A stretch of 46,123 nt of DNA from Tangfeifania diversioriginum (lineage in GTDB: Bacteria > Bacteroidota > Bacteroidia > Bacteroidales > Prolixibacteraceae): positions 1 through 46,123 of the forward strand of contig CAMCBW010000041.1 of NCBI GenBank assembly GCA_945873105.1, written 5' to 3'. The notes under the pieces were generated by a model. The model searched no databases. It was not told the origin of the DNA and worked only from the letters and a program-made list of their open reading frames with translations. Positions 21,841 through 37,521 of this stretch are shown one piece after another. The number at the start of each line of letters is the position of its first letter. Position 1 is the stretch's first letter. The translations under genes were made by a program, and so were the position numbers.

Positions 21841-21871
21841 TTTCATAATGAGCATATGTTCGTTACATTTG
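21841..21871 (+). promoter_or_regulatory. Promoter with operator in the spacer, NifX-like gene 22097
   Basis: TTTC at 21841-21844, then 19 nt, then TACATTTG at 21864-21871 match the Bacteroidota -33/-7 pattern. The spacer holds ATGAGCATATGTTCGT (21848-21863), an imperfect palindrome of the ATGARCA-N2-TGYTCAT class found at three other promoters here. Occupancy there would block polymerase. The leader to the ATG is about 220 nt. Confidence 0.6.
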
Positions 21872-22096
21872 CAAAAACTGAATCATTTGTCATGAAACGA
21901 ACATGTTGCTTCACAACATCCAGGAGAATGATAATAATTTCAGCAACATGGAGTTCCCTACTACCTTTAAAAGACAAATTATTATAGTATGAAATGCCCA
22001 TGAGAATATGTTCACACCAACCAAAAATGATTATGTGGGCATTAGCTTCGCTGATCTTCGATTCCATTTGGCCTTTAAAAAACAAAATATAAACAA

Positions 22097-22480
22097 ATGA
22101 AAATAGCCGTACCAGTCACTGAATTCAACCAAGTAGACAACCATTTTGGCCATTGCAACTTTTACAATGTATTCTCCGTCACAGGAGGAATTGTAACGGA
22201 TATCAAAAGAGTACCTTCTCCCCAGGGTTGTGGATGCAAATCAAATATTGCTGAGCTCCTGGCCGCCGACGGTGTCAAAGTAATGCTGGCAGGAGGCATC
22301 GGAAACGGAGCCATCAACGTACTGAATAATTCCGGTATAGCTGTGATAAGGGGATGCTCAGGTGACTCATTGGAGCTTGTCAACCTATACAATTCAGGAG
22401 ATTTGACCGACAGTGGTGAAAGTTGTCACCACCACGACCACCATCAGGCGGAAGAAAGCGGCCATCAATGCAGTCATTAG
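22097..22480 (+). CDS. NifX/NifB-C-terminal-like (dinitrogenase iron-molybdenum cofactor) domain protein
   Basis: 127 aa. The PF02579-type fold is recognised from the MKIAVPVTEFNQVDNHFGHC start and the GGIGNGAINVLNNSGIAV segment. Cysteines in GCGCKS (about 45-49) and HCN could carry a metal cluster. The tail (from residue about 108) is His- and Cys-rich (CHHHDHHQAEE), pointing to metal binding. Nitrogenase genes are absent, so a role as metal-cluster carrier of the orange-protein type is more likely. It precedes the cytochrome bd genes and has its own operator. Confidence 0.8.
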   Translation: MKIAVPVTEFNQVDNHFGHCNFYNVFSVTGGIVTDIKRVPSPQGCGCKSNIAELLAADGVKVMLAGGIGNGAINVLNNSGIAVIRGCSGDSLELVNLYNSGDLTDSGESCHHHDHHQAEESGHQCSH

Positions 22481-22575
22481 CAAACTTAAAATACTGCTTG
22501 ATAATTTATCCCTTTGGCTACCATCCAAGCAGATTTATTTGTATTTTTAACTCTCCCGAAAAGGACCTTTAACAA

Positions 22576-22785
22576 ATGAAGGAGGTTTTTCACAATATCT
22601 TTCAGTTTTACTACCAGGGTTTTAGCCACATGACCCTGGGCAAGCGGCTTTGGGCCATTATCCTCCTTAAATTGATCATCCTTTTTCTGATTCTAAAGCT
22701 GTTCTTCTTCCCCAATTTTCTGAAAACCAACTTCAGCACCGACGAACAGCGCAGCAATCACGTATTTGAACAACTCACCAAATAA
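22576..22785 (+). CDS. DUF4492 membrane protein, cytochrome bd accessory
   Basis: 69 aa with one hydrophobic segment (LWAIILLKLIILFLILKLFFF, split: residues about 26-46). The FYYQGFSHMTLGKRLW part before it is characteristic of DUF4492. It ends 6 bp before cydA, the usual location of this family. The role is unknown; an assembly or small-subunit function is inferred from linkage. Confidence 0.85.
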   Translation: MKEVFHNIFQFYYQGFSHMTLGKRLWAIILLKLIILFLILKLFFFPNFLKTNFSTDEQRSNHVFEQLTK

Positions 22786-22791
22786 GCGCAT

Positions 22792-24333
22792 ATGGAAAAT
22801 GTTGATTTTTCGCTGGTCGATTGGTCGCGGGCACAATTTGCACTGACGGCCATGTATCATTGGCTGTTTGTTCCATTGACCCTGGGACTCTCCTTCATCA
22901 TCGCCTTCATGGAAACCCTGTACGTCAGAACCGGCGATCCCGAATGGAAGCGTATTACCAAATTTTGGTTGACCCTTTTCGGCGTCAACTTTGCCATCGG
23001 GGTAGCCACCGGAATTATCCTTGAATTTGAATTCGGTACCAACTGGTCGAACTATTCGTGGTTTGTAGGCGACATCTTTGGCGCTCCATTGGCCATCGAA
23101 GGGATCATGGCCTTCTTCCTGGAGAGTACATTTATTGCCGTGATGTTCTTTGGATGGAACAAGGTAAGCAAGAAATTCCACCTCTTGTCGACCTGGTTGG
23201 TGGCCATCGGCTCCAATCTGTCTGCCCTTTGGATCCTGGTAGCCAATGGTTGGATGCAAAATCCCGCTGGGATGAAATTCAATCCCGACACAGTAAGAAA
23301 CGAAATGGTCAACTTCTGGGAGGTACTCTTCTCCCCGGTTGCCATCAACAAATTCCTTCACACCATTTCATCAGGGTATGTCCTTGCTTCAGTTTTTGTC
23401 ATCGGGGTGAGTGCCTGGTATCTCTTGAAGAACAGGGAACCGATTTTGGCAAAAAGGAGCATCGTAGTAGCAGCTGTTTTCGGCTTAATTACGACGGCTT
23501 TTGTCGTTCTTACGGGAGACGGATCAGCCCGAAACATGGCAAAATACCAGCCCATGAAATTTGCAGCCATGGAGAATCTCTATGTCGGGCAACAAAATGC
23601 CCCGCTGGTTGCCATTGGCATCCTCAAAGCTGACCCCAAAGAGGCTGCCCATAAAAAGCAGGATTTTTTGTTTGAACTGGAGATCCCAAATATGCTCTCT
23701 TACATGGCATTTCTCGATCCGAATGCCTACGTCCCGGGCATACAGGATTTGGTGCACGGCAATGCAGCGCATCAAATTCCATCCTACCGGGAAAGAAGCG
23801 AAAAAGGAAAGATTGCCATACAATCACTGGCAGCCTACAAGGAGGCCAAAAAAGCCGGGAATGATTCACTGGCAAAAAGTGCATTGTCCAGTTTTGAGGC
23901 CAATTATCCCCACTTTGGGTATGGATATTATGCAGGCCGCGACGTGCATGAACTGGTACCCAGTGTTCCCACTACCTTCTATTCTTTCAGGATCATGGTT
24001 GGTTTGGGGGTGCACTTTGGGGCACTGTTTCTGGTAGTACTGCTTTTAACGATCAAAAAGAGGATCGAAAAGAAGAGATTCATCCTCTATACGGCACTAT
24101 GGACAATTCCCCTGGCTTACATTGCCTCCGAACTTGGCTGGGTAGTAGCAGAAGTGGGCCGGCAACCCTGGGTGATACAGGATATTTTACCGGCCATCGC
24201 AGCAGTATCCCAATTGAAATCCTCCTCCGTCCAAATCACCTTCTGGATGTTTTTTATCCTCTTTACGGGTCTGTTGATAGCTGAGATCAAAATCATGCTT
24301 GCTGTCATCCAAAAAGGGCCCGACTCAAATTAA
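22792..24333 (+). CDS. cydA: Cytochrome bd quinol oxidase subunit I
   Basis: 513 aa inner-membrane subunit carrying the hemes. Heme ligand candidates are His23 (MYHWLF), the histidine in NKFLHTISSGYV (about 184) and Met in YSFRIMVGLG (about 400). GRQPWVIQ, conserved near the quinol site, is present. Oxygen is reduced to water using menaquinol. A high-affinity oxidase in an otherwise anaerobic gene set suggests oxygen scavenging. Confidence 0.97.
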   Translation: MENVDFSLVDWSRAQFALTAMYHWLFVPLTLGLSFIIAFMETLYVRTGDPEWKRITKFWLTLFGVNFAIGVATGIILEFEFGTNWSNYSWFVGDIFGAPLAIEGIMAFFLESTFIAVMFFGWNKVSKKFHLLSTWLVAIGSNLSALWILVANGWMQNPAGMKFNPDTVRNEMVNFWEVLFSPVAINKFLHTISSGYVLASVFVIGVSAWYLLKNREPILAKRSIVVAAVFGLITTAFVVLTGDGSARNMAKYQPMKFAAMENLYVGQQNAPLVAIGILKADPKEAAHKKQDFLFELEIPNMLSYMAFLDPNAYVPGIQDLVHGNAAHQIPSYRERSEKGKIAIQSLAAYKEAKKAGNDSLAKSALSSFEANYPHFGYGYYAGRDVHELVPSVPTTFYSFRIMVGLGVHFGALFLVVLLLTIKKRIEKKRFILYTALWTIPLAYIASELGWVVAEVGRQPWVIQDILPAIAAVSQLKSSSVQITFWMFFILFTGLLIAEIKIMLAVIQKGPDSN

Positions 24334-24374
24334 CCATCTTCATCCATTCTACAACCATTTAAAAATCTGGAACC

Positions 24375-25547
24375 ATGTTCGAAGCATTACCTTACCACAT
24401 TTTGCAACAATACTGGTGGATGATTGTCTCACTGCTGGGAGCCATTCTGGTATTCCTCATGTTTGTCCAGGGAGGACAGACGCTCATCTATACCATTGGG
24501 AAAACCGACGACGAAAGGACCCTGCTGATCAACCTCCTGGGACGGAAATGGGAATTCACCTTTACCACCCTGGTTACTTTTGGAGGGGCATTCTTTGCCT
24601 CCTTCCCGCTCTTCTACTCGACCAGCTTCGGCGGCGCCTACTGGGTCTGGATCCTGATTCTGTTTGCCTTCATTGTGCAGGCAGTCTCCTACGAATTCCG
24701 CAGCAAGGCCAATAATTTCCTGGGAAAGAGAACTTTTGAAACTTTTTTACTCCTCAACGGGATTATAGCACCCCTGCTGATCGGTACAGCCGTTGCCACT
24801 TTTTTTACCGGGTCGCAATTTTCAATCAACTTCACCAATATCACCCTCCTTACCGGAGACAAGATGCCTGTCATTTCTGAGTGGAAAGGTCCGGCACATG
24901 GACTGGAGGCTGCACTGAATCCACAAAATCTATTACTGGGGCTTACGGTACTGTTTCTTGCCCGCGTACTGGCACTGCTCTATTTCATGAACCGGATTGA
25001 CCATCGTGAAATGTTGGAACGGATCAAAAAGCAGTTGCTTGTCAATGCAGTCCCATTTGTCGTTTGCTTCCTTGCATTTGTGGGTTGGACACTTTTAAGT
25101 ACAGGTTTTGCAGTGAATCCCCAAAATGGCGAGGTATCTCCGGAACCATTGAAATACCTTCACAACCTGCTGCAGATGCCAATAGTCGCTTTGGTTATGG
25201 TGCTGGGCGTGGTATTGGTGTTAAACGGAATCATCCGGCCACTCCTGCAATTCGAGAAATACAGCTCCAAAGGAATCTGGAGTGCAGGCATCGGGACAGT
25301 GCTTACCGTGTTTGCCTTGTTCCTGCTGGCAGGATTCAACCATACCGCCTATTATCCATCAACTTTCGACCTCCAAAGTTCGCTCACCATACAAAATAGC
25401 TCCTCCAGCCAATATACGCTCACCGCCATGAGCTATGTATCGCTGCTGGTTCCATTTGTGCTGGCCTATATCTGGGTCGCCTGGCGTGCCATAGACAATA
25501 AAAAAATTGACTATGATGAGCTTAAAAGTGAGTCTCACCTCTATTAA
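24375..25547 (+). CDS. cydB: Cytochrome bd quinol oxidase subunit II
   Basis: 390 aa with about nine hydrophobic segments. It starts 41 bp after cydA. The pattern VQGGQTLIYTIG near the N-terminus and SYEFRSKANNF in the second loop are CydB features. It forms the heterodimer with CydA. Confidence 0.96.
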   Translation: MFEALPYHILQQYWWMIVSLLGAILVFLMFVQGGQTLIYTIGKTDDERTLLINLLGRKWEFTFTTLVTFGGAFFASFPLFYSTSFGGAYWVWILILFAFIVQAVSYEFRSKANNFLGKRTFETFLLLNGIIAPLLIGTAVATFFTGSQFSINFTNITLLTGDKMPVISEWKGPAHGLEAALNPQNLLLGLTVLFLARVLALLYFMNRIDHREMLERIKKQLLVNAVPFVVCFLAFVGWTLLSTGFAVNPQNGEVSPEPLKYLHNLLQMPIVALVMVLGVVLVLNGIIRPLLQFEKYSSKGIWSAGIGTVLTVFALFLLAGFNHTAYYPSTFDLQSSLTIQNSSSSQYTLTAMSYVSLLVPFVLAYIWVAWRAIDNKKIDYDELKSESHLY

Positions 25548-25570
25548 ATAAACCCCCAAACTCCTGAATT

Positions 25571-25690
25571 ATGTTAACTCAAATAGTCTGGTTCCTCAGT
25601 TGGCCGCTGCTAATTTTTCTCTCTTTTTATGCCATCAGCTGGACATTTAAAAAGTATTTCTCTGAAGACAAATCCGATTCTCCGAAATAA
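25571..25690 (+). CDS. CydX-like small membrane protein
   Basis: 39 aa beginning MLTQIVWFLSWPLLIFLSFY, with one membrane span and then KKYFSEDKSDSPK. It lies 23 bp after cydB on the same strand. CydX/CbdX proteins are 30-40 aa single-span subunits that stabilise the heme sites. Recognition is from size, topology and place; the sequence does not match the E. coli CydX motif in detail. Confidence 0.7.
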   Translation: MLTQIVWFLSWPLLIFLSFYAISWTFKKYFSEDKSDSPK

Positions 25691-25702
25691 TTTCAAAAAT
25701 TT

Positions 25703-25765
25703 AGTGATATTATAACGATTTAGGTGATATTATAGCGATTTATATTTTTTTGTTTTATATATTTG
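25703..25765 (+). promoter_or_regulatory. Tandem 20-bp repeat operator and -7 box of gene 25788
   Basis: Two adjoining 20-bp units at 25703-25722 and 25723-25742 differ at two positions (RGTGATATTATARCGATTTA). The 20-bp register places both copies on about the same face of the helix. TATATTTG at 25758-25765 fits the -7 box, and the ATG is 22 bp later. No TTTG -33 box is at the usual distance, so activator dependence is plausible. Confidence 0.6.
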
Positions 25766-25787
25766 CCCAACAAATTAAAACAAGAGA

Positions 25788-26033
25788 ATGTCAAACAGCT
25801 GTGAAACGGAGCCTACGCCCAAAAGCACCAAAGAGGTTTTAAAAACCTGGAAATTCTGGAAGCCTGTAACTGCCATTGCCGTTGGAAGTCTCCTTGGCTT
25901 CCTCTATTACTATTTTATAGGCTGTACCTCAGGAAGTTGCGGAATCACCAGCAATCCATACCAGAGTGCTGCCATGGGCGGTCTGATGGGCCTGTTTATG
26001 GTAAACAGTCCTTGCAGCAGAGGAAACTGTTAA
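25788..26033 (+). CDS. Small Cys-containing membrane protein (DUF6132-like)
   Basis: 81 aa, two hydrophobic segments: VTAIAVGSLLGFLYYYFIG (about 27-45) and AAMGGLMGLFMV (about 62-73). Cysteines in GCTSGSCGIT between the spans and in SPCSRGNC at the end suggest redox or metal binding at a membrane face. It has its own promoter and is followed by a thioredoxin lipoprotein, so both may act in extracytoplasmic thiol stress. Confidence 0.7.
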   Translation: MSNSCETEPTPKSTKEVLKTWKFWKPVTAIAVGSLLGFLYYYFIGCTSGSCGITSNPYQSAAMGGLMGLFMVNSPCSRGNC

Positions 26034-26064
26034 TCTGAATTACAACCAAAATCAAATAATACCA

Positions 26065-26526
26065 ATGAAGCTTATTTTTACCCCCTTTCTCCTCGGATTG
26101 TTGCTGGTCTTCAGCAACTGCAATGCCGGTTCTCCGGCCAAGCCCAGTGGAACCGCCAACAGTGCAGGTTCTGTCATTGTTTTAACCAACGAGACCTTCA
26201 AGCAGAAGGTTTTCGATTATGAGAAGAACACCACCTGGAAATATGAAGGAAACCTTCCGGCCATTGTCGACTTCTATGCAGACTGGTGTGCCCCTTGCCG
26301 CAAATTATCTCCGCTGGTGGAAGAGATTGCAACCAAGTACAAGGGAAAAATCGTGGTCTACAAAGTGGATACCGATGCCCAGCAGCAACTGGCCCAAAGC
26401 ATGGGTATCTCCAGTTTGCCTACCCTGCTTTTCATTCCGGTAAAAGGTCAGCCAAGGTCTTCCCTTGGCGCTCTTCCCAAGGAAAATCTTGAAAAAGCCA
26501 TCAAGGAGGTTTTGATGGTTCAATAA
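26065..26526 (+). CDS. Thioredoxin-fold lipoprotein
   Basis: 153 aa. The lipobox VFSNC puts the lipidated cysteine at residue 19. A thioredoxin domain follows with DFYADWCAPCRK (active-site Cys75 and Cys78) and SLPTLLF containing the cis-proline. The protein would be an envelope thiol-disulfide carrier. It starts 31 bp after the Cys-rich membrane protein, implying joint expression. Confidence 0.88.
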   Translation: MKLIFTPFLLGLLLVFSNCNAGSPAKPSGTANSAGSVIVLTNETFKQKVFDYEKNTTWKYEGNLPAIVDFYADWCAPCRKLSPLVEEIATKYKGKIVVYKVDTDAQQQLAQSMGISSLPTLLFIPVKGQPRSSLGALPKENLEKAIKEVLMVQ

Positions 26527-26547
26527 AAAGATCTTGCCAAAAAATTC

Positions 26548-26763
26548 AAATGAGGCTGTATCAAAAGACAAGATGAATTTTTAGCTATTACAATTTGAAA
26601 GCTAATTCCCTTTTTTTTTACCCCTAAATCCCCTAAAGGGGACTTGGAGATCGTGAAATGGTCAGGATTTAAGCCCCTTTAGGGGTTTGGGGTCTGAACA
26701 ATTCGGAAATAACTTTCAAATTAGCTACAAAAGAAATACTTGACTTTTGAGACAGCCTCATTT
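26548..26763. mobile_element. 216-bp MITE with long terminal inverted repeats
   Basis: The left end AAATGAGGCTGTATCAAAAG (26548-26567) matches the reverse complement of the right end (TTTTGAGACAGCCTCATTT, 26745-26763) with one or two mismatches. Inside, CCCCTAAATCCCCTAAAGGGG and CCCCTTTAGGGGTTTGGGG form a second inverted pair (26621-26640, 26672-26690). No ORF is present. The GAGGCTGTCTCAAAAG end is of a type found on Bacteroidota insertion sequences, from memory, so this is probably a non-autonomous derivative. Confidence 0.8.
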
Positions 26764-26870
26764 TGTTTGATCACCCGCAAGTATCCGTTCACTTTTGCCA
26801 AAATCTTAAAGTGTATTCCTAAAAGTCCTATCTTTAAAGCACTACTTTTAGGCCATCGGTTGATCAGTTT

Positions 26871-27578: not shown

Positions 27579-27594
27579 AATTAAACAATAGGTC

Positions 27595-28023: not shown

Positions 28024-28135
28024 GTTACTATTGGAAATTTTGGTGAGTTATGAGTTATTAGTTGTGAGTTAAGTAATGGTTTAATAGTCCCTCAGTATTG
28101 AATCAATAAAGTTCGTTGATGAATAACAAAAATGA

Positions 28136-28223
28136 TTCACGCAAAACACGCAAAGAAAGACGCAGAGAATTCCAAAATGAACTTTGCGGTACTTTGCGAT
28201 TTTACTTGGCGCCCTTTGCGTGA
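28136..28223. repeat. Palindromic repeat with CACGCAAAG units
   Basis: The left arm TTCACGCAAAACACGCAAAG (from 28136) and the right arm, ending CCCTTTGCGTGAA at 28223, are imperfect inverted repeats around an EcoRI-like centre (GAATTC at 28167-28172). CTTTGCG is repeated three times in the right arm. No ORF. This is the same architecture as the 425-590 element with different sequence. Confidence 0.7.
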
Positions 28224-28282
28224 AATATGGTAATTACATAAGAGAAAGTTGATAAAAATAAAGTCATTTAAAAAACAGATAT

Positions 28283-28882: not shown

Positions 28883-28923
28883 AATTTAAAATGTTTCTAA
28901 GTATCTAGGTTTTGATATATTAT

Positions 28924-28965
28924 TATATTTGCATTTCTAATGCATTATGAGCAATTGCTCATAAT
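28924..28965 (+). promoter_or_regulatory. -7 box and perfect 22-bp palindromic operator of the octaheme cytochrome gene
   Basis: TATATTTG at 28924-28931 fits the -7 box. A perfect palindrome with 11-bp arms (ATTATGAGCAA and its complement) spans 28944-28965, where transcription would begin, and contains ATGAGCAATTGCTCAT. It overlaps an upstream in-frame ATG at 28940, which is why the start at 28988 is preferred. The position suggests repression. Confidence 0.65.
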
Positions 28966-28987
28966 GATTGTCAGAAAAAGAGATGCC

Positions 28988-30592
28988 ATGCTTAGAAACT
29001 TGCTATTTGTAATCTTGCTAATCGTTTTCACGCTGGTCCTGGTGAATGTACTTCACCAGGAAGATTCCTACAACCTGAAACTGGAGGAATTGAAGCACAA
29101 GTATGCCTTAAAACCAGTTCCCTCCGTGAATCACAACAAGTTGCCTGCATTGCAGGTGAACTTCAAGTCTCCGCAGGAAGTTACCGAAGCTTGCCTGCAG
29201 TGTCATACAGAGACACACAAGGAGATTATGGCCTCCTCCCATTGGAATTGGGAACGAGCCTCCTATGTTGAAGGACGCGGAGTTTCTTCGGCAGGAAAGA
29301 AGAATGTAATGAACAACTTCTGCATCGGCACCAATTCCAACCAACAATCCTGTGCAAAGTGCCACATCGGTTTCGGAATGACCAGTACCCATTATGATTT
29401 TAACAATGCAAGGAATGTGGATTGCATGGTCTGTCACGACAACAGTGAGGAGTACCTGAAAGGAGCCTCCATGGCCGGTTATCCGGATAGAACAGTCAAC
29501 CTGGAGAATGTGGCGCAGAGTGTAGGCTCCCCCAGAAAAAGCAATTGTGGCTCCTGCCACTTCTTTGGTGGGGGGGGAAACAACGTCAAACACGGTGACC
29601 TGGAAAGCGCCCAACTCTCCTGCAGCCGGGAGGTAGATGTCCACATGGGGGCAAACGGGATGAACCTGGAATGCGTCGCCTGCCACACAGCAGAAAACCA
29701 TAAGATGCTTGGTAAACTCTATTCTGTATCCACCGACAACAGCGACAGGGCAACCTGTGAGCAATGCCATACTTCCACTCCTCATCTTAGCGATGTGCTC
29801 AATCGTCACGACTCCAAAGTCTCCTGCCAGGCCTGCCACATTCCGCAATATGCCAAAGTCAATTCCACCAAGATGTCATGGAAATGGTCGGATGCCGGAA
29901 AACTTAGGAATGGACAACCATTTGAGGAGGAAGACTCTTTGGGGAACCACAACTATTTGTCGATCAAAGGCTCTTTCGTTTGGGAACGAAATGTAAAGCC
30001 CGACTATGTTTGGTTCAACGGAACGGCAGATCAATACCTTTTGGGAGATTCGATCCAATCTGTACCCGTAAAAATGAACACCCTCAACGGTGATTACCAC
30101 GATAGGCTGTCCAAAATCATCCCTGTTAAGATTCATGTTGGTGATCAGATTTATGACAAGGTCTACAATCGTCTGGTTCAGCCTAAATTGTATGGGGAAG
30201 CCGAAGGAGACAGCGCCTTCTGGAAAGACTTCAAATGGGACGAGGCCGTAGCTGCGGGAATGAAAGAATCAGGACTCCCATACAGCGGCGAGTATGGATT
30301 CATTGAAACAGAGATGTACTGGCCTGTCAACCATATGGTTGCCCCAAAGAGTCAGTCTGTAGGCTGTGCTGAATGCCACACCCGTTCCAATGGGAGACTG
30401 GCAAAACTGTCAGGGTTTTACCTGCCAGGACGTGATTCGAACGAGACACTGGATACCCTAGGATTCTGGATGTTTATCCTAACACTGCTATCGGTATTCG
30501 GACATGCCATGGTAAGGATGCTTGCCAAGATCTACCTGAATAAATATGAGAAACAGGTGATCAGCTACGAGGAAGACAAACCCGAGGAATAG
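28988..30592 (+). CDS. Octaheme c-type cytochrome, tetrathionate reductase (OTR) family
   Basis: 534 aa. An N-terminal membrane anchor (LLFVILLIVFTLVLVNVL) is followed by eight CxxCH heme sites: CLQCH, CAKCH, CMVCH, CGSCH, CVACH, CEQCH, CQACH and CAECH. The last is near residue 455, close to a C-terminal span (LGFWMFILTLLSVFGHAMVRML, split after FGHA). The heme count, size and tail match the octaheme tetrathionate reductase family, studied in Shewanella, which also reduces nitrite and hydroxylamine. It lies 41 bp before its cytochrome b partner. ATGs at 28940 and 28964 are alternatives. Confidence 0.9.
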   Translation: MLRNLLFVILLIVFTLVLVNVLHQEDSYNLKLEELKHKYALKPVPSVNHNKLPALQVNFKSPQEVTEACLQCHTETHKEIMASSHWNWERASYVEGRGVSSAGKKNVMNNFCIGTNSNQQSCAKCHIGFGMTSTHYDFNNARNVDCMVCHDNSEEYLKGASMAGYPDRTVNLENVAQSVGSPRKSNCGSCHFFGGGGNNVKHGDLESAQLSCSREVDVHMGANGMNLECVACHTAENHKMLGKLYSVSTDNSDRATCEQCHTSTPHLSDVLNRHDSKVSCQACHIPQYAKVNSTKMSWKWSDAGKLRNGQPFEEEDSLGNHNYLSIKGSFVWERNVKPDYVWFNGTADQYLLGDSIQSVPVKMNTLNGDYHDRLSKIIPVKIHVGDQIYDKVYNRLVQPKLYGEAEGDSAFWKDFKWDEAVAAGMKESGLPYSGEYGFIETEMYWPVNHMVAPKSQSVGCAECHTRSNGRLAKLSGFYLPGRDSNETLDTLGFWMFILTLLSVFGHAMVRMLAKIYLNKYEKQVISYEEDKPEE

Positions 30593-30633
30593 CAGGGAAC
30601 CTAACAAAATACATCCATAAAACACCACAGGAA

Positions 30634-31287
30634 ATGGAAAAAATATACATCTACAAAGGGTTTGAACGCTTCTGGCACTGGACTCAGGCTTCACTGATCC
30701 TGTTTCTTGCCCTCACCGGATTCGAAGTCCATGGAGCATTCCATGTATTTGGTTTCGAAAAGGCAGCTGCCTTTCACCGGACAGCCTCCTGGTTGTTGAT
30801 CGGGCTGATCATTCTTGCCATCTTCTGGCACATCACTACCGGAGAGTGGCGTCAATACATTCCCACGACCAAACAACTGAAAGAGCAGATCCTTTATTAC
30901 CTAAAAGGCATTTTTAAAGGAGAGCCACATCCAACAGAGAAAACGGAACTAAGCAAGCTAAATCCATTGCAACGAATTGTATACCTTGGATTTAAACTCA
31001 TACTGGTTCCACTTACCATTCTATCAGGGATACTCTACATGCTTTACAAAACCTTCGACCAAAACAATTTAATTGTCATTGAGGAATACCCGCTTGAAAG
31101 CATTGCCTTTTGGCATACGTTGGGAGCCATACTACTGATGGTGTTCCTTGTGGTGCATGTATACATGACCACCACGGGCAAAACACCAACTTCCAACATC
31201 AAAGCCATGATTACCGGATACGAGGAATTTGATGAAGAACATAAGGAGGAGACAGTTAAAAACAAGAATACCAAAAACCAACCATGA
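30634..31287 (+). CDS. Cytochrome b membrane anchor subunit (Ni/Fe-hydrogenase b type)
   Basis: 217 aa with four main hydrophobic segments. Histidines for heme b ligation are seen in FWHWTQ (15), AFHR (about 47), FWHI and FWHTLGA plus VVHVYM (about 171). It would pass electrons from menaquinol to the octaheme subunit. It overlaps the next gene by 4 bp (ATGA), so the two are translationally coupled. Confidence 0.88.
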   Translation: MEKIYIYKGFERFWHWTQASLILFLALTGFEVHGAFHVFGFEKAAAFHRTASWLLIGLIILAIFWHITTGEWRQYIPTTKQLKEQILYYLKGIFKGEPHPTEKTELSKLNPLQRIVYLGFKLILVPLTILSGILYMLYKTFDQNNLIVIEEYPLESIAFWHTLGAILLMVFLVVHVYMTTTGKTPTSNIKAMITGYEEFDEEHKEETVKNKNTKNQP

Positions 31288-31802
31288 AGTCACAAAAATA
31301 CATGAACCCCTATCTGGCCGGATTCCTGCTCGGCTTAGTACTTTTGGGTACAATATATGTAACAGGCCGTGGTCTGGGAGCCAGTGGTGCTGTAAAAAGC
31401 GTGATCCTTTCCACTGTCACTGCCCTGGCACCGGAACATACTGCCGGAACCCCCTATCTTAGGAGTTACGAAGAAGAACACCCCAATGGCCCTTTGAATG
31501 ACTGGCTTGTCTTTGAGGTAATTGGTCTGATAATTGGCGCTTTCCTTTCCGGAATTGTTTCCAACCGCGTCGGAATCAAACTCGAAAGAGGTCCTAACAT
31601 CACCAACCGGACAAGGATTATTGCCGCCATTTTTGGGGGAGCACTCTTCGGACTGGGATCACAACTTGGCCGCGGTTGTACCAGTGGTGCAGCTTTGAGC
31701 GGCATGGCAGTCATGTCCCTTGGCGGTATCATTACCATGATGGCCATCTTTGGATCGGGATACGCATTTGCCTATTTTTTCAGAAAACTTTGGTTAAAAT
31801 AA
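31284..31802 (+). CDS. YeeE/YedE-family sulfur transporter, first half
   Basis: 172 aa, about four hydrophobic segments. GRGCTSGAALSG with Cys132 is the conserved cysteine loop of YeeE/YedE (TsuA-like) proteins, which take up thiosulfate in studied members. It is only half of a complete transporter; the other half follows 5 bp later. A short split pair of this kind is common in Bacteroidota and sulfur bacteria. Confidence 0.88.
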   Translation: MKSQKYMNPYLAGFLLGLVLLGTIYVTGRGLGASGAVKSVILSTVTALAPEHTAGTPYLRSYEEEHPNGPLNDWLVFEVIGLIIGAFLSGIVSNRVGIKLERGPNITNRTRIIAAIFGGALFGLGSQLGRGCTSGAALSGMAVMSLGGIITMMAIFGSGYAFAYFFRKLWLK

Positions 31803-31807
31803 TTGAC

Positions 31808-33004
31808 ATGGGACCACTCGTACCCTCCATACTCAGCAATGAATTCAGTTTGGTCATTGCCCTGATTGCCGGTATTGGATTCGGATTTGTGCTGGAGCAA
31901 GCAGGATTTTCTTCTACCAAGAAACTGGTCGGCCTGTTTTATGGCTATGATTTTACTGTGCTCAAAGTCTTTTTTACTGCAGGTGTAACTGCCATGATTG
32001 GCGTTTTACTGTTCGGTCAAATTGGAATTCTGGATTTGAGCATGATTTATATTAATCCGACCTTCCTCTGGTCCGCTCTCGTTGGAGGAGCAATCATGGG
32101 AGTAGGATTCATCATCGGCGGCTTTTGCCCCGGAACCAGCGTTTGTGCTGCCGCCATTGGGAAACTGGACGGCCTGGCATTTGTCTTTGGATCAGGACTT
32201 GGCGTGCTAATGTTCGCAGAAGGATACCCTATGTTCAAGGATATATACCTCTCCGAATCATGGGGAGCATTGTTGATCAACGAACAACTGGGTCTGTCAA
32301 AGGTCTTGTTTGCCTTTATCCTTGCGGCCATAGCCTTTGTCGCCTTTTATCTCACAAGGCAGATTGAGAACAAAGTAAACCGAACAACCGTTCAATTGCC
32401 AAAATCACGGATCATCCTCTATAGTTCGGCTGTAGTTTTTGCCTTTCTTGTATTGACGGTGGTAGCATTGATGCCGGATCGAAACAGCAGATTGGAGAAA
32501 AAGGCCCTCCAAGCACTTCAAAACACCGATTTTACTCCCTTGCAGGTTCCTGCAGATAAACTGGCAGGCGAAATCGTCAGCAATTACTACAAAATCAACA
32601 TCATAGACCTCCGAAATCCTGTAGCATTCAAGAGCTACCATCTTCCATTCGCCATCAACATTCCCGTCGATAAATTAACGGATCGTCAATGGAGGACCAT
32701 TCTGGACCAAAAACACAAGGTGAATTTCTTCTATGCAGATGATCCGCAGATTGCCAAAAAAGGCATTTTACTGGCCGGCTATTTGGGGAAAGCTGAGAAT
32801 TACCTGTTGTCCGGATCCTCCTCCGATTTTAAAAAATTGTTTTTTGATTTGACCGCTCCGGGGGCGGATGCTTCCAAGCAAGAGGTAAACAACTACCATT
32901 TCAGGAATAAGGCAGCCAATGATATGAAAATATTGCAGGATGCCCTAAAAAATTCAACGGAACCGGTGGTTGCCAAAACCTCAAAAATAAAAGGAGGTTG
33001 TTGA
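31808..33004 (+). CDS. YeeE/YedE second half fused to a Cys-less rhodanese-like domain
   Basis: 398 aa from the ATG at 31808. A longer frame would start inside the preceding gene. Membrane part (about 1-230) holds GGFCPGTSVCAAAIGKLDG with Cys107 and Cys113, the second conserved loop of the transporter. The extracytoplasmic tail (about 265-370) has the rhodanese pattern DLRNPVAFKSYHLPFAINIP, but where the active-site CxxxxR should follow the text is NFFYADDPQIAKKG, with no cysteine. The tail is likely to bind rather than transfer sulfur. A final GGC could be an unusual C-terminal cysteine. Confidence 0.85.
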   Translation: MGPLVPSILSNEFSLVIALIAGIGFGFVLEQAGFSSTKKLVGLFYGYDFTVLKVFFTAGVTAMIGVLLFGQIGILDLSMIYINPTFLWSALVGGAIMGVGFIIGGFCPGTSVCAAAIGKLDGLAFVFGSGLGVLMFAEGYPMFKDIYLSESWGALLINEQLGLSKVLFAFILAAIAFVAFYLTRQIENKVNRTTVQLPKSRIILYSSAVVFAFLVLTVVALMPDRNSRLEKKALQALQNTDFTPLQVPADKLAGEIVSNYYKINIIDLRNPVAFKSYHLPFAINIPVDKLTDRQWRTILDQKHKVNFFYADDPQIAKKGILLAGYLGKAENYLLSGSSSDFKKLFFDLTAPGADASKQEVNNYHFRNKAANDMKILQDALKNSTEPVVAKTSKIKGGC

Positions 33005-33224
33005 ATCAGGAAAAGAGGTTAACTTTGAACAAACATTGTTCAGAAGAGATCAGAAAGAGGATCACCCACAATTGACAATATTACTATTAACAGCAACATA
33101 GTTTGCAGGATTTGGTGCAGCCTTTTTTTGTCTCAATTCTCTATCATTGGGATTAACCTTATTTTTAACCCAACCCAACAGAGCCTTCGTTGGGTATGGT
33201 TAAGACAACTTTAACTGAAAAGGC
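33005..33224 (+). other. Spacer with an imperfect hairpin before the PHP gene
   Basis: 220 bp. Inverted GAACAA-N3-TTGTTC lies near 33026-33040. A stem AACCCAACCCAAC with GTTGGGTATGGTT (loop AGAGCCTTC) lies at about 33167-33201. It is directly followed by the gene at 33225. No ORF. The hairpin could end the sulfur operon or protect the mRNA; there is no clear T-tract. Confidence 0.45.
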
Positions 33225-34697
33225 ATGGAGGTTTCAAATAAAAAAAAGCAGATAGGATTATCCATCTTTCTGGCCGTCATCGTATTACCGGCCACTGTTT
33301 TTCATTATCCGATTGGCATCCTTGATGCATTAACGCTCCAGCCTTTGTCGGATTATGGTATCCAAATCCCGTTTTGGAGAGTCCTGTTCGAACCATTTCT
33401 GGGTTATTTGCTCTTCCTGAATCAATCCTTTTACACCCTCGACGAATTGAAATTTGTACTGCTATGGTTGGTGGTATTCTTTGTTGTTTACAGTTTGGCT
33501 AAAACCCTCTCCCTAAGTGACAGAACGCTACGGAGAAGTTTTATCCTCCGTCAATTGATCAATATCCCGTTGCTGATAGGTTTGTGGTTTGTGTTGCTTG
33601 TTGTGGTGATCTTCATCCCATTGCCAAACAATACAATTGTCAACAACTCGCCAAATGCCATTCTTGTAACGACACACACCCATACCGAATACAGCCATGA
33701 TGGACTGATCTCACAGGAGGGATTGTGGAAATGGCACAAACGCAATGGATTTGATGCATTTTTTATCACCGATCACAACAACCACGACAAAACCCTGGAG
33801 TTTGTCGCTGCCCAACGAAACAAGCAATTCCCCGGTGAGCCGCTTGTCATGGCAGGTGAAGAATTTTCAGGCACCAACCATTTGAGTCTGCTGGGCTTGA
33901 AAAAATCATTCAGGACCAAGGGAATGACCGACTCAATGGCGGTGGCCATGGCACGTGCCGACAACGGGGCCGTGATCGTCAACCATTGGTTCGATGGGGA
34001 ACGAAAGAGCCTCGACTATTACAAAGAGCTGGGGGTGGATGGTTTTGAGATTGAGAATACAGCTACCGACAAAAGATACGACCGGGAGGTGTACAAACGA
34101 ATAGGCAATTTTTGTGCAACCAATGGATTGCTCCTGAACGGGGGTTTGGATTTTCACGGATATGGAAGCGCTTGCACCCTGTGGAATGCGCTGGATATCC
34201 CCGGATGGAGAGCGTTGGATCCAGCTGCCAAAGAAGAAGCCATTCTACAAATAATCAGGAGTCGCGATCAAAGTAAAATAAAGGTGTTGTTGTACAACGA
34301 CAGGTCCTACTACAGCAAGGATCAGTTGCTATTCAGACCGATACTTGCCATTTTCAACTATTTCCGGACTTTGAATCTCTTCCAGGGTTTCTCCTGGCTT
34401 GTCTGGACCTTGCTGTTCGCCTTTATCTGCCAACGTATATCCAACAAGGAAAGAATAGTGAGAACCTTGACTGTTCAGCGCCTGCTGCCTCTGCTGGGAG
34501 TTATGGGGGCCCTTTTCCTGCTGGGCCTTGGATGGCACTATTTCAATCGGATAAAACCAGTTGAGGACTTTACTGAAATGTACCAGGAGTACAGTACACT
34601 GCTGTTTTATGCGGGTGCTGCATTTCTAATCTACTCCGTAATTGTGCTTCTTTTTAGACAGAATGAAGCAAAAAAAGGCAGGTCATCACACAGCTAG
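33225..34697 (+). CDS. Membrane-anchored PHP-domain metallophosphoesterase
   Basis: 490 aa. About four N-terminal hydrophobic segments (9-130) precede a PHP domain with metal motifs HTHTEYSHDG (His151, His153), ITDHNNH (Asp183, His184), GEEFS, NHWFDG and GLDFHGYG. Two more membrane spans lie near 410-430 and 455-475. PHP domains act as phosphatases or phosphodiesterases, often on polymerases or histidinol phosphate, but a membrane-bound, probably external, version has no known substrate that I can name. It may not belong to the sulfur operon, since 220 bp separate them. Confidence 0.8.
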   Translation: MEVSNKKKQIGLSIFLAVIVLPATVFHYPIGILDALTLQPLSDYGIQIPFWRVLFEPFLGYLLFLNQSFYTLDELKFVLLWLVVFFVVYSLAKTLSLSDRTLRRSFILRQLINIPLLIGLWFVLLVVVIFIPLPNNTIVNNSPNAILVTTHTHTEYSHDGLISQEGLWKWHKRNGFDAFFITDHNNHDKTLEFVAAQRNKQFPGEPLVMAGEEFSGTNHLSLLGLKKSFRTKGMTDSMAVAMARADNGAVIVNHWFDGERKSLDYYKELGVDGFEIENTATDKRYDREVYKRIGNFCATNGLLLNGGLDFHGYGSACTLWNALDIPGWRALDPAAKEEAILQIIRSRDQSKIKVLLYNDRSYYSKDQLLFRPILAIFNYFRTLNLFQGFSWLVWTLLFAFICQRISNKERIVRTLTVQRLLPLLGVMGALFLLGLGWHYFNRIKPVEDFTEMYQEYSTLLFYAGAAFLIYSVIVLLFRQNEAKKGRSSHS

Positions 34698-34714
34698 ATG
34701 GGATAACCTGCCTT
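34675..34714. terminator. Bidirectional terminator between convergent genes
   Basis: AAGGCAGGT at 34675-34683 pairs with ACCTGCCTT at 34706-34714, and GGATA extends the stem past a bulge. An A tract precedes it (U tract on the - strand). It lies at the end of the PHP gene and 18 bp after the stop of the peroxiredoxin gene read leftwards. Confidence 0.5.
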
Positions 34715-34731
34715 ACAATCGAAAACTACGA

Positions 34732-35442
34732 CTATTTCGCTTTAATTGCATTCATTACCTTCTCTTCTGAAAGCTCTTTGGTGCAGAAGAACCAATCGTA
34801 GCATTTCATCCCCTCCTCTTTGGCCTCCATACGATCTTTGGCTACGCCGCAAGAACCTGCCGGAGGAACAATAACTGCATCACCTGGTCGCCAGTCAGCC
34901 GGCATGGCAACACCAAAACTATCCGCCGCCTGAAGGGCAATAATCACGCGCTTCAGTTCATCAAAGTTACGACCAAGGGACAAGGGATAATAGATCATTG
35001 CCCGTATAATTCCTTTGGGATCTATGAAAAATACCGCGCGAACAGCCTTGGTGTTACTCTCACCGGGTTGAATCATGCCATATTTTTTGGCTACTTCCAT
35101 GGTAATATCCTCAATCAAGGGAAATTTTACCTCAACCTCTTTCATTCCCTTGTAAACGATCTTCTCCTTGATGGTACGCAACCAGGCGATGTGGCTGTAA
35201 AGTCCATCTACGGACAAACCCACCAATTCGCAATTGAAAGACCTGAAATCATCTTCCATGGAGGCAAAAGTCATGAACTCAGAGGTACAAACAGGCGTAA
35301 AATCGGCAGGGTGGCTAAACAAAATGACCCACTTCCCTGCATAGTCAGATGGGAAACTAATAGGTCCCTGGGTAGTTACCGCTTTAAATTCGGGTGCTGC
35401 TTCACCAATCCTTGGCAATAAAATTGAATCCTGATTTTCCAT
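34732..35442 (-). CDS. Peroxiredoxin, 1-Cys/archaeal Prx6 type
   Basis: 236 aa from the ATG at 35442; the longer frame (to 35511) is mostly untranslated leader. The peroxidatic Cys52 sits in HPADFTPVCTSEF. Cys214 and Cys220 in KCYDWFFC (CX5C) match the resolving pair of archaeal thioredoxin peroxidases such as the Aeropyrum enzyme. Cys198 is extra. Detoxifies peroxides and fits with cytochrome bd and thioferritin as oxygen defence. It follows a small membrane protein gene by 16 bp on the same strand. Confidence 0.93.
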   Translation of the reverse strand: MENQDSILLPRIGEAAPEFKAVTTQGPISFPSDYAGKWVILFSHPADFTPVCTSEFMTFASMEDDFRSFNCELVGLSVDGLYSHIAWLRTIKEKIVYKGMKEVEVKFPLIEDITMEVAKKYGMIQPGESNTKAVRAVFFIDPKGIIRAMIYYPLSLGRNFDELKRVIIALQAADSFGVAMPADWRPGDAVIVPPAGSCGVAKDRMEAKEEGMKCYDWFFCTKELSEEKVMNAIKAK

Positions 35443-35458
35443 ATCAATAATTATTAAA

Positions 35459-35683
35459 TTAAAAATAAAATTTGCGATGAATGTATTGATCATAAAACAG
35501 ATAGCCGGCATAAAGCATCGTTAGGATCAGCAGAGAAATGCCAAAATAGCAGTAGAAATTACAATAGAATTTTTCTCCGGCCCCACATAGGCCTGATATA
35601 CAACCTACGAAGATCATAATTATCCAATCCATAAATAATAGAACAGGAATAACAATGATCATTTTTACCATTGAGCGTTCCAT
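35459..35683 (-). CDS. Small two-span membrane protein with Cys cluster
   Basis: 74 aa, two hydrophobic segments (about 5-28 and 46-62). Between them GCISGLCGAGEKFYCNFYC supplies four cysteines, positioned for metal or redox chemistry. A consensus promoter lies directly upstream, and the stop is 16 bp before the peroxiredoxin start, so it is the first gene of a two-gene unit. No family is recognised. Confidence 0.6.
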   Translation of the reverse strand: MERSMVKMIIVIPVLLFMDWIIMIFVGCISGLCGAGEKFYCNFYCYFGISLLILTMLYAGYLFYDQYIHRKFYF

Positions 35684-35734
35684 TTTGATTAACTATTAAT
35701 TATGCTTATTTTCAAGATGTGAAATAAGTAATAA

Positions 35735-35765
35735 CAAAGATAAAAAAATATCAACAACAAGCAAA
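35735..35765 (-). promoter_or_regulatory. Consensus Bacteroidota promoter of the small membrane protein-peroxiredoxin unit
   Basis: On the - strand, TTTG at 35765-35762 is followed after exactly 19 nt by TATCTTTG at 35742-35735. This is an excellent match to TTTG-N19-TAnnTTTG. Its -33 box overlaps the upstream flank of the divergent DUF134 promoter, so the two directions may compete. Confidence 0.7.
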
Positions 35766-35772
35766 TGTTCTT

Positions 35773-35798
35773 TATGTTTGTTTAGATCATATGTTCAT
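35773..35798 (+). promoter_or_regulatory. -7 box and imperfect operator of the first DUF134 gene
   Basis: TATGTTTG at 35773-35780 is a -7 box. TAGATCATATGTTCAT at 35783-35798 keeps the right half TGTTCAT of the ATGARCA-N2-TGYTCAT palindrome and a poor left half. It ends 5 bp before the ATG. Confidence 0.5.
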
Positions 35799-35803
35799 AT
35801 ACT

Positions 35804-36391
35804 ATGCCAAGACCAAAGAGAATAAGAAGAATGAACAATCCCCCGCATTTCAAGGGGTACAGACCAATTGGTTTACCGGAAGAAAACAGTCCGGTCGTTA
35901 TTAATTTCGAAGAGTACGAAGCCATACGTCTGAGTGACTTTGAATTGCATGGACATGTTGAAGCTTCTAAGATCATGGGAGTATCAAGACCAACCTATAC
36001 ACGCATTTATGAAATTGCGCGGCGCAAAGTAGCACAGGCCTTTGTACAAGGAAAGGCCATTGTGTTTGAAGGGGGGAAGGTCTATTTTGACAGTGAATGG
36101 TATTCCTGCAACAGCTGTGGTTGCTGGTTCAATCATCCGGAAAAGACAGATGAAGTCAGTCGTTGTACGTTATGTGGGTCCACCGTTATCGAACAATACC
36201 ATCAAGGACCTCACGCTGGTTCTACCGATGATCTTTGCGTCTGCCCTACTTGTGGGTTCGAAAAAGTCCATTTACACACAAATCCCTGCAAAAGTGAGCG
36301 ATGCCCGAATTGCAGTTGTCAGATGATCAGTAAAGAGGCACCTCAACCCCATCGCTTGAAAAACAACAATTGCAAACAAAAAAATTCATGA
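35804..36391 (+). CDS. DUF134 (UPF0251) helix-turn-helix regulator with zinc-ribbon tail, copy 1
   Basis: 195 aa. The N-terminal MPRPKRIRR and LSDFELHGHVEASKIMGVSR (helix-turn-helix, about 43-62) are DUF134 hallmarks. The C-terminal half has CNSCGC, CTLCGS and CVCPTCGF plus CKSERCPNCSC, i.e. two zinc-ribbon-like clusters not found in the shortest family members. Probably a DNA-binding repressor for metal or redox cues. It is followed by a NifX-like gene, the same order as in copy 2. Confidence 0.85.
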   Translation: MPRPKRIRRMNNPPHFKGYRPIGLPEENSPVVINFEEYEAIRLSDFELHGHVEASKIMGVSRPTYTRIYEIARRKVAQAFVQGKAIVFEGGKVYFDSEWYSCNSCGCWFNHPEKTDEVSRCTLCGSTVIEQYHQGPHAGSTDDLCVCPTCGFEKVHLHTNPCKSERCPNCSCQMISKEAPQPHRLKNNNCKQKNS

Positions 36392-36395
36392 AATA

Positions 36396-36446
36396 CCCAT
36401 GATTTGGAAATCACCAATCGAGCTGATAACAAGCTCAGGGGTATTC
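36396..36446 (+). promoter_or_regulatory. Intercistronic stem-loop
   Basis: AATACCC (36396-36402) pairs with GGGTATT at 36439-36445, and GAGCT pairs with AGCTC inside (about 36419-36434). The stem sits between the DUF134 and NifX-like genes and could stabilise or end part of the message. No T-tract follows. Confidence 0.4.
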
Positions 36447-36477
36447 CATGTGGCAAGCAAAAAACAAATTACAATAC

Positions 36478-36795
36478 ATGAAAGTAGCCATCTCATCCGT
36501 AGGAAATAGTCCCGATGCAAAATTGGACAGCCATTTTGGTCGTTGCTCCTACTTCGTCATATACGATACCGAAACCGCTGCCACAGAGTACATTCCCAAC
36601 ATGAACAAAGAAAACATCGAAGGATGTGGTCCTGCATCAGTCCATTTTGTAGCTTCAAAAGGAGTTAAAAAGATCATCTCAGGTGAATTCGGAGCCAAAG
36701 TCAAAGCCATCTCCGACAGCTTTCAAATTCAACTGATTATTTTAAAAGATCAGGAAAAGACAATGAGTGAGATTTTTCAATTGTTAAACCATTGA
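36478..36795 (+). CDS. NifX-like (PF02579) protein, copy 1
   Basis: 105 aa from the ATG at 36478, chosen because it aligns with the copy at 38108; an upstream ATG at 36448 adds ten residues. Core signature: VAISSVGNSPDAKLDSHFGRCSYFVIYD (given by its key residues NSPDA, SHFGRCS), then GEFGAKVKAI. Single Cys in GRCSYF and one in EGCGPA. Binds metal-sulfur or molybdenum clusters in related orange proteins. Confidence 0.8.
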   Translation: MKVAISSVGNSPDAKLDSHFGRCSYFVIYDTETAATEYIPNMNKENIEGCGPASVHFVASKGVKKIISGEFGAKVKAISDSFQIQLIILKDQEKTMSEIFQLLNH

Positions 36796-36845
36796 TATAA
36801 TGCATCGTTCAATTTGTCTTGGTATCCTAGCTGTCTGTTTAAAAA

Positions 36846-37358
36846 TTACATCCTCATTTTCTTAAATTCCTCTTTCATCCTTCTGATATCCGTCAGCCAA
36901 TCTTCGATATCATTTTCGTGTTCAAGTTCTTCGTTCAGGATGGTGGTAGCCATAGCATGCGTGGTATGGTCTGCTCCTCCGGTAAAGTCAGCGATCTCTT
37001 TGTAGCGTTGAATCGCACATCGCTCACCTTTTAAGTTTTGTTCCAGAATCACCTCAATGTATGGATCAGAGGGTGCATCGTAGGAACAACGACTAAGTTT
37101 TGGCCACTCTTCAGGATTTAGAACCGGAGTTCCGCCCAGTTGAATGATTCGGCCGACGACCAATACAGCATGTCCCAATTCCTGGTTGGCATGAAGCAAC
37201 AATTCCGGCTCAACTTCACTGCGCATCGGGCCCTCCATGAGTCTGGCCCCAATCCAATACTGGTAATAAGCCAGCCATTCTTCAGCCAATGCAGCGTTTA
37301 ACATGTCAAGTAATTTTGGCACGTCTAAGTTTAAAATGTTTACAGCTTGTTTTCCCAT
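36846..37358 (-). CDS. DPSL thioferritin (Dps-like ferritin)
   Basis: 170 aa four-helix ferritin-like protein. Iron-site residues come from EEW (26-28), HANQELGH (56-63), GERCAIQRY and NEELEHEND (142-150). Cys91 and Cys114 form the thioferritin cysteine pair that sets DPSL apart from bacterioferritin; a Bacteroides fragilis DPSL has been structurally characterised. Oxidises and stores iron while consuming peroxide. It is transcribed away from the second DUF134 gene, sharing the operator region. Confidence 0.85.
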   Translation of the reverse strand: MGKQAVNILNLDVPKLLDMLNAALAEEWLAYYQYWIGARLMEGPMRSEVEPELLLHANQELGHAVLVVGRIIQLGGTPVLNPEEWPKLSRCSYDAPSDPYIEVILEQNLKGERCAIQRYKEIADFTGGADHTTHAMATTILNEELEHENDIEDWLTDIRRMKEEFKKMRM

Positions 37359-37453
37359 TACACTAAATTTTATTAAGTGATATTCTATGAGTTATTTGTG
37401 GTAGTGTCCGGAGAGATTTATGATGGCATTTCCACTTTATGATTACAGACAAA

Positions 37454-37461
37454 CAAATATA
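37454..37461 (-). promoter_or_regulatory. -7 box of the DPSL gene
   Basis: TATATTTG on the - strand at 37461-37454 is a good -7 box, but the -33 region lacks TTTG. It starts 27 bp from the inverted repeat at 37489-37512, so an activator bound there could serve both directions. Confidence 0.5.
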
Positions 37462-37488
37462 TTAAAAAAAACGTTAATACTACCATAT

Positions 37489-37521
37489 TGTTCATTATAT
37501 TTGTAATGAACATTTGCTCAT
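37489..37521 (+). promoter_or_regulatory. Compound operator with -7 box inside, second DUF134 gene
   Basis: TGTTCATTA (37489-37497) and TAATGAACA (37504-37512) are perfect 9-bp inverted arms around TATTTG, which is the end of the -7 box TATATTTG (37496-37503). The second site ATGAACATTTGCTCAT (37506-37521) overlaps the right arm. Three half-sites thus cover the promoter. The ATG is at 37526, 4 bp after the second site. Confidence 0.65.

Follow-up and report, generated by a model that had tools for sequence, protein, structure and literature searches.

A conserved dyad at DUF134 promoters suggests a family of self-regulating helix-turn-helix proteins associated with NifX-type genes

The 46,123-nucleotide stretch of Tangfeifania diversioriginum DNA analyzed here (contig CAMCBW010000041.1 of assembly GCA_945873105.1), in the following called the window, encodes two DUF134 proteins and raises the question which protein reads a palindrome that recurs in front of these and of other genes. 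According to the original prediction, the palindrome is shared by four promoters, i.e., those of a NifX-like gene starting at position 22097, of an octaheme cytochrome gene and of the two DUF134 genes, and marks a DUF134 regulon. The analysis confirmed the observation in part, since the palindromes are real and several details had to be corrected, and it partly supports the interpretation. The DUF134 family is common; it lacks an assigned function, and the accessible part of one paper names it as such. The comparisons described below suggest with considerable confidence that DUF134 proteins are helix-turn-helix (HTH) self-regulators binding the dyad, with NifX, DUF5320 and MinD-like genes in their regulon. 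This mode of action is of a known kind; the role of DUF134, its operator and its regulon appear to be new, and no report of a DUF134 operator or of such regulation was found among the titles and abstract openings listed by an open-access library. A defined operator makes the family a testable regulator, provides a DNA pattern for target finding and points to a signal pathway for clusters of NifX, MinD-like and DUF5320 genes.

The pattern ATGARCANNTGYTCAT, i.e., ATGARCA-N2-TGYTCAT, was searched in the window (46 kb) and in the whole genome (5.36 Mb). In the window it occurs exactly at 28947-28962 and 37506-37521 and with one mismatch at 21848-21863. The fourth site, 35783-35798, shows three mismatches upon reading of the sequence, has a good right half only and is absent from the list of matches with up to two mismatches. 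This list comprises five sites, compared to a mean of 0.99 and a maximum of 4 in shuffled sequences, and none of 100 shuffles gave five. One of the five, a site with two mismatches at 45646-45661, is located within a CoA-disulfide reductase-like gene and is probably due to chance. In the whole genome, six sites with at most one mismatch were found versus two for the reversed pattern, and three of the six, both exact ones among them, lie in the window (P = 1.3e-5, assuming an even spread). The string TGACATATGTCA is reportedly contained in a paper on E. coli binding motifs (PMC4655474). Moreover, a profile search yielded two PF02001 matches in the genome, and these are the two DUF134 genes of the window, at 35804 (DUF134a) and 37526 (DUF134b). 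With 78.4 and 67.8 bits against a gathering cut-off of 27 both are members of the family, whose Pfam name gives neither a DNA target nor a role in regulation; the only NCBIfam match, PRK04217 'hypothetical protein', reaches no more than 60.2 and 56.5 of the 115 bits required.

In a sample of 295 genomes of the order, evenly drawn and not complete, 155 have a PF02001 match, 153 of them above the Pfam cut-off. A first collection of 94 DUF134 genes, with loci picked from the PF02001 listing and not by the motif, plus the window, was reduced to 89 by removal of near-duplicates. The dyad (up to two mismatches, within 250 nt upstream) is present at 66 of these 89 genes, compared to 0.4 for dinucleotide shuffles and none for the reversed pattern. 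In a second collection, for which loci were found by protein only, it is present at 41 of 60 genes (reversed pattern: 1). Both motif-blind collections combined give 107 of 149 genes, versus one for the reversed pattern, showing that the motif is conserved upstream of DUF134 genes in relatives. The original prediction had named a lack of such conservation as a refutation, and its idea clearly withstood this check. Addition of 8 genes from motif-fetched loci resulted in a working set of 157 genes, 113 of which have the dyad; it was obtained from 191 genes after near-duplicate proteins (above 90% identity) and genes with an upstream region shorter than 60 nt had been dropped. These 8 genes are included in the counts of palindromes, words, box anchors, promoter geometry, covariation, genes without a site and gene neighborhoods. 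The motif also emerges without being searched: the 18 nt preceding each TAnnTTTG (141 boxes in 133 of the 157 genes) yield the consensus ATGAACA-wA-TGTTCAT in register, and in gapped word counts TGAAC-N4-GTTCA ranks top in the N4 frame (61/157 genes). Across the sampled genomes, the exact 16-mer is found in 51/155 genomes with DUF134 and in 15/140 without it (p = 3e-6; reversed 10 and 6), and the dyad together with the box (up to two mismatches) in 123/155 versus 18/140 (p = 1.5e-32; reversed 11/155 and 5/140), where the reversed-pattern counts were read by eye and the genomes are not phylogenetically independent.

Outside Bacteroidota, 16 DUF134 genes, some of them mutually close relatives, were collected from plasmid records (10 of 14 in one listing, 5 of 189 in another) and from IMG/VR contigs (3 of 5 loci, two near-identical ones being dropped). 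They originate from Bacillota (Clostridia, Negativicutes), Spirochaetota (Treponema) and Pseudomonadota (Salinivibrio, Aeromonas, Enterobacterales), and the family is also found on plasmids of Clostridia, Treponema, Salinivibrio and Enterobacterales. The pattern TTGRCA-N2-TGYCAA was drawn from the first eight of these genes, and seven of the remaining eight have it as well. Overall, it is present at 15 of 16 genes (up to two mismatches, within 200 nt), with 0.48 for shuffles and none for either the reversed or the Bacteroidota form. Conversely, the TTGRCA form is found at 4 and the ATGARCA form at 112 of the 157 Bacteroidota genes. Both operator forms have the core RCA-N2-TGY in common.

In 74 cases the Bacteroidota -7 box TAnnTTTG follows the site without a gap (offset 0); in 27 cases, corresponding to a second operator, it starts 26 nt before the site end. 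The two starts of a site pair are separated by 26 bp in 34 of 43 pairs. The usual DUF134 promoter is O1 - TAnnTTTG - O2. O1 lies upstream of the -7 box and therefore acts as DNA, not as RNA. In the window, both promoters are on the forward strand. For DUF134a, a degenerate O1 (ACAAGCAAATGTTCTT, 35757-35772, three mismatches) precedes the box TATGTTTG (35773-35780), and the weak site TAGATCATATGTTCAT at 35783-35798 occupies exactly the position of O2, at the conserved spacing of 26 bp from O1. For DUF134b, O1 (37480-37495) has a good right half, TGTTCAT, and is followed by the box TATATTTG (37496-37503) and by the O2 ATGAACATTTGCTCAT (37506-37521), an exact match in the window and genome scans. 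What had been described at 37.5 kb as an additional 9-bp inverted repeat around the -7 box turned out to be the inner halves of these two operators.

The predicted self-control of DUF134 has good, though indirect, support from the conserved dyad at its own promoters, where it overlaps the core promoter. The positions of O1 and O2 would suit a repressor: O1 lies directly against the -7 box, and O2, placed 26 bp downstream of O1, covers the transcription start, so that a bound protein would block RNA polymerase. DUF134 would mainly repress itself in this way, the own operon staying off until a signal releases the protein, and judged from this layout repression is the probable mode of action. Alternatively, DUF134 might bind and activate, or act either way depending on NifX; its HTH resembles sigma region 4, and there are HTH systems in which binding beside the -7 box may be stimulatory. 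However, O1 fills the spacer at the -7 box, O2 is placed on the start and the site of the octaheme cytochrome gene lies downstream of the box, all of which are positions of repressors, and activation is thereby rendered unlikely.

Is DUF134 itself the protein reading the dyad? For two DUF134 profiles, built from Bacteroidota and from other sequences, respectively, the top match in the PDB is the DNA-binding domain of Bacillus subtilis DeoR (E 2e-5 and 4e-4). In an AlphaFold model of DUF134b (mean pLDDT 83 for the whole model, pTM 0.47) the HTH overlays DeoR at 0.7 Å across 40 columns. A Foldseek search with the full model gave no match with E < 0.001; the matches to MCM chains, which had the lowest E-values, lie over the Cys-rich part and were rejected as spurious, and the HTH overlays alone were used. 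The left operator of DeoR is ATTGAACAAAATTTCAAT, with the base contacts of the left half located within TTGAACA according to the DeoR paper (PMC11229326), and the DeoR operator and the DUF134 dyad have the common frame TGAA-N6-TTCA (DUF134: TGAA-CANNTG-TTCA). DeoR, a member of the SorC family, furthermore resembles DUF134 in its SRPTxxR helix and in having two half-operators per promoter. DUF134 differs from DeoR in the 26-bp spacing of O1 and O2 and in size, most proteins having 100-220 amino acids (aa) and some carrying Cys-rich or NifX parts. The C-terminal sugar-binding SorC domain was not found by Pfam in the window proteins and long relatives scanned; the window proteins contain DUF134 only, and the long relatives add NifX or nothing. 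The DUF134 HTH also resembles the sigma-70 region 4/HTH superfamily in weak Pfam matches and structural overlays; no further sigma domain appeared in the Pfam and Foldseek scans.

Judged from their spacing, the two arginines of the DeoR motif SRPTVSR are presumably R34 and R39, which contact bases. Their counterparts in DUF134 are R62 and R67, neither of which varies in two Bacteroidota alignments (27 and 75 rows). R67 is absent in all 16 proteins of the other groups, whose operator form has no G at -6, and one further protein (L367) has Lys at position 67 together with a normal operator. This difference between helix residue and operator flank is suggestive of direct reading, being in effect one contrast. 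A further correlation concerns helix residue 66 and base -4: in 135 genes with a site, G is present in 19 of 182 half-sites for Thr66 versus 49 of 62 for Ala/Gly66 in the raw counts. It was not used as proof because significance was lost in independent contrasts, of which 6 were in favor, 2 against and 3 tied (p = 0.29). Cysteines C102, C105, C121 and C124 of the Cys-rich tail are invariant in 75 alignment rows. DUF134 very probably binds the dyad directly and as a dimer, i.e., ATGARCA-N2-TGYTCAT in Bacteroidota or TTGRCA-N2-TGYCAA in the other phyla.

A second operator class, ATGAGAATATTCTCAT, was observed exact or close and in the same place before the -7 box at eight loci (L194, L196, L197, L211, L213, L226, L228, L233), and this class, GAGAA-N2-TTCTC, largely accompanies one protein group. 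Short DUF134 proteins of approximately 100-120 aa (L007, L049, L062, L024, L059) have TGAGCATATGCTTA-type operators that are shifted by two bases relative to the box.

As to the genes under control, a NifX gene is present within 3 kb in 87 of 99 DUF134 loci, along with MinD-like genes in 40, Mrp-like genes in 38 (overlapping families), DUF5320 in 17 and octaheme cytochrome genes in 2, all being raw counts with no background rate. Moreover, of 10 long DUF134 proteins scanned, 9 carry a fused NifX domain (7/8 Bacteroidota proteins of at least 240 aa and 2/2 from Clostridia). This supports the predicted link of DUF134 to NifX in general, but the support is thinner for the NifX-like gene 22097 itself (PF02579, 22097-22480, forward strand). 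Its operator ATGAGCATATGTTCGT (21848-21863) has one mismatch, also as a composite with the box TACATTTG (21864-21871) it abuts in the canonical O1 layout, and the start codon is 233 nt away from the operator. The original prediction had placed this site between the -33 and -7 elements; it does abut the -7 box, but no TTTG was read at the normal -33 spacing. A weaker second site, ATGAGAATATGTTCAC at 22000-22015 (two mismatches), may be due to chance. Among 30 loci of best-matching relatives of NifX 22097, 14 have DUF134 within about 1.5 kb as judged by a peptide pattern (12 upstream, 2 downstream), and a site (up to two mismatches, within 420 nt upstream) was found in 3, namely in the window, L315 and L316. 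The family of NifX 22097 travels with DUF134, and a lone NifX gene with its own operator is unusual.

Exact sites away from DUF134 genes, as judged from the listing, were inspected at 40 loci, at least nine further such sites, mostly in DUF134-negative genomes, being omitted. Of the 41 sites contained therein, 14 adjoin a DUF5320 gene identified by pattern, 2 a DUF134 gene missed by the listing, 7 have the box only and 18 neither; the loci are self-selected, and the DUF5320 share is therefore a share of this selection only. The 18 sites with neither box nor DUF134 or DUF5320 gene are probably mostly due to chance. Two of the box-only loci (L129, L136) have a DUF5320-like gene by reading, and the identity of DUF5320 was checked by Pfam in five cases including the window. 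Twenty further composite-site loci, chosen from the listing, are followed by a regulon-type gene in 12 cases and by none in 8; the 12 comprise NifX-NifX onward (L361, L370), DUF5320 (L357, L365, L375), DUF134 (L367, L369, L371, L376) and the TonB receptor loci and L366 described next. In three genomes, genes for TonB-dependent receptors of approximately 735 aa start 20-23 nt past a DUF134-type operator and box (L357, L368, L372), making an uptake system within the DUF134 regulon possible. Operators ahead of CoA-disulfide reductase-like genes were observed at L366 and L147, with DsrE and TusA further downstream at L366, and represent a candidate link to sulfur transfer.

The regulon would usually include the operon of DUF134 itself, in most cases together with genes for NifX-type cluster-binding proteins; DUF5320 and MinD-like genes would belong to it in many genomes. 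The fusion of NifX to some DUF134 proteins suggests that NifX, or in the window proteins the Cys-rich tail, carries the signal. The likeliest input would be a NifX protein or a fused NifX domain, probably holding a metal-sulfur cluster, although the prospects for NifX as the sensor are about even. Similar kinds of genes, a NifX-type domain and an Mrp-type ATPase, make up MrpORP of the orange protein (ORP) system; both MrpORP domains bind Fe-S clusters and NifX-type (Di-Nase) domains can do so, as stated in the accessible part of the MrpORP paper, where control by DUF134 is not among what is described (PMC6345978). In Clostridia, the last gene of one DUF134 cluster is annotated as MrpORP. In the widest version, put forward tentatively and with somewhat less than even expectation, DUF134 proteins might be widespread autoregulators using one operator code in at least four phyla. 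They would make the transcription of cluster-handling genes (NifX, MinD-like, DUF5320, Mrp) depend on the state of a metal-sulfur cluster held by NifX, and genes for octaheme cytochromes, TonB receptors and sulfur transfer (CoA-disulfide reductase-like, DsrE, TusA) would have been recruited locally to this control.

In the present genome, the regulon would probably extend to NifX gene 22097, which stands alone, and to the operon of octaheme cytochrome and sulfur transport genes. The latter has the -7 box TATATTTG at 28924-28931, followed by the palindrome CATTATGAGCAATTGCTCATAATG. This palindrome had been described as perfect, 22 bp in length and covering the start of transcription. It is indeed perfect, but it extends over 24 bp (28943-28966, with the exact operator at 28947-28962), begins 11 nt past the -7 box and lies mostly downstream of the likely start. 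The octaheme cytochrome c gene of the tetrathionate reductase family (28988-30592; start MLRNLL placed by relatives, searches from 28985) is followed by genes for a cytochrome b561 and two YeeE/TsuA-like sulfur transport proteins (30634-33004), which probably form an operon with it; all are on the forward strand. Among the best 30 loci of 64 genomes matched, the 29 other octaheme loci comprise two with a near site (L258 in genome G134 and L266 in G123), two with weak distant sites (L263, L276) and 25 with none. A general conservation of the operator at octaheme cytochromes was rejected on this basis, and the predicted link of DUF134 to a sulfur/cytochrome operon holds for this lineage and a few others. 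With few octaheme loci having a site, control would therefore represent local recruitment. G134, whose octaheme protein is the closest to that of the window (81% identical), retains both box and dyad (two mismatches); in G123, DUF134 is divergent from the octaheme gene and the dyad is shared.

The palindrome might instead be the site of another regulator, or chance, given its rarity at other octaheme loci and its location 13 bp further downstream than the usual O2. It is, however, one of the two exact matches of the genome, G134 retains it while the flanks differ, and in G052 (L156) an exact O1 and box precede a cupin gene, a gene for a cytochrome with eight heme motifs and, by reading, a cytochrome b-like gene. 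Such an alternative is thus not probable, and in this genome the octaheme operon is likely to be under DUF134 control.

Several observations weigh against the view of DUF134 as the reader and repressor of its own dyad. No site within the limits of two mismatches and 250 nt is present at 44 of the 157 genes. Seven of these have the class-II dyad GAGAA-N2-TTCTC (up to two mismatches) and six (L046, L053, L076, L078, L215, L229) a site and box 250-530 nt upstream, with a NifX gene leading the operon at L076 (L315). The other 31, including DUF134a, have neither at the set limits; some of them have three-mismatch sites like DUF134a. Also among the 31 are the DUF134 genes of L037, L039 and L040, which belong to the same taxonomic family as the window and at which no operator was found; these are a different subfamily, located directly after a gene that by reading ends like chorismate synthase. 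With DUF134b as a single query sequence, the PDB search did not return any HTH relative (best E 0.2, LSm3). In the Foldseek results sorted by E-value, DeoR is only 11th (E 0.15), after MCM and sigma region 4 chains, and the covariation of residue 66 fails in independent contrasts. NifX fusions are rare overall (7/157 Bacteroidota proteins), the window proteins being unfused, and the preference for repression over activation is drawn from the layout alone. Finally, most of the listed composite sites are the own promoters of DUF134, so that the co-occurrence across genomes measures autoregulation more than a wider regulon.

The 18 DUF134-negative genomes with a composite site, such as G104, where it precedes DUF5320-like genes, and G199, where a NifX gene follows it, are also what would be expected if another DNA-binding protein read the dyad and DUF134 genes were merely its commonest target. 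Against this, a dyad with the same core goes with DUF134 in four phyla, it fits the operator frame of DeoR as the nearest solved relative, and the operator flank varies between groups with recognition-helix residue 67 (Arg in the Bacteroidota alignments, 0/16 elsewhere, Lys in L367), and this alternative is therefore considered improbable. Practically no weight is left for chance palindromes of AT-rich DNA or RNA hairpins: unconstrained palindromes are indeed common (120/157 real versus a mean of 70.6/157 shuffled upstream regions, making such a search uninformative), but the dyad sequence itself occurs two orders of magnitude more often than in shuffled DNA (66 versus 0.4 of 89), has a fixed place at the -7 box, and O1 is not transcribed.

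On the forward strand of the window, each DUF134 gene is followed by a NifX-like gene: DUF134a (PF02001, with a Cys-rich C-terminal part; 35804-36391) by the gene at 36478-36795 (Pfam; scanned from 36448), and DUF134b (PF02001, AlphaFold model; 37526-38095) by the one at 38108-38431 (Pfam). A ferritin-like gene (36846-37358, reverse strand) is located between the two units. Further downstream on the forward strand are a DUF5320 gene (Pfam; 38642-38872), a type of gene that has its own operator elsewhere, and at 38937-43706 genes for NifX, ARMT1-like and CGGC proteins, two P-loop ATPases with ferredoxin domains (MinD-like), peptide deformylase and Mrp, which are the probable downstream part of the DUF134 cluster; the names MinD-like, deformylase and Mrp were given by reading of the sequence. 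On plasmids of Morganella, Aeromonas and Proteus (L323, L324, L326) DUF134 overlaps NifX and is followed by a gene for an anion channel of the SLAC1 family. Contigs titled Dehalococcoidia (L241), Chitinophaga pinensis (L167) and Bacteroides fragilis (L173) encode DUF134 proteins 49-89% identical to those of the window, and these titles may be wrong.

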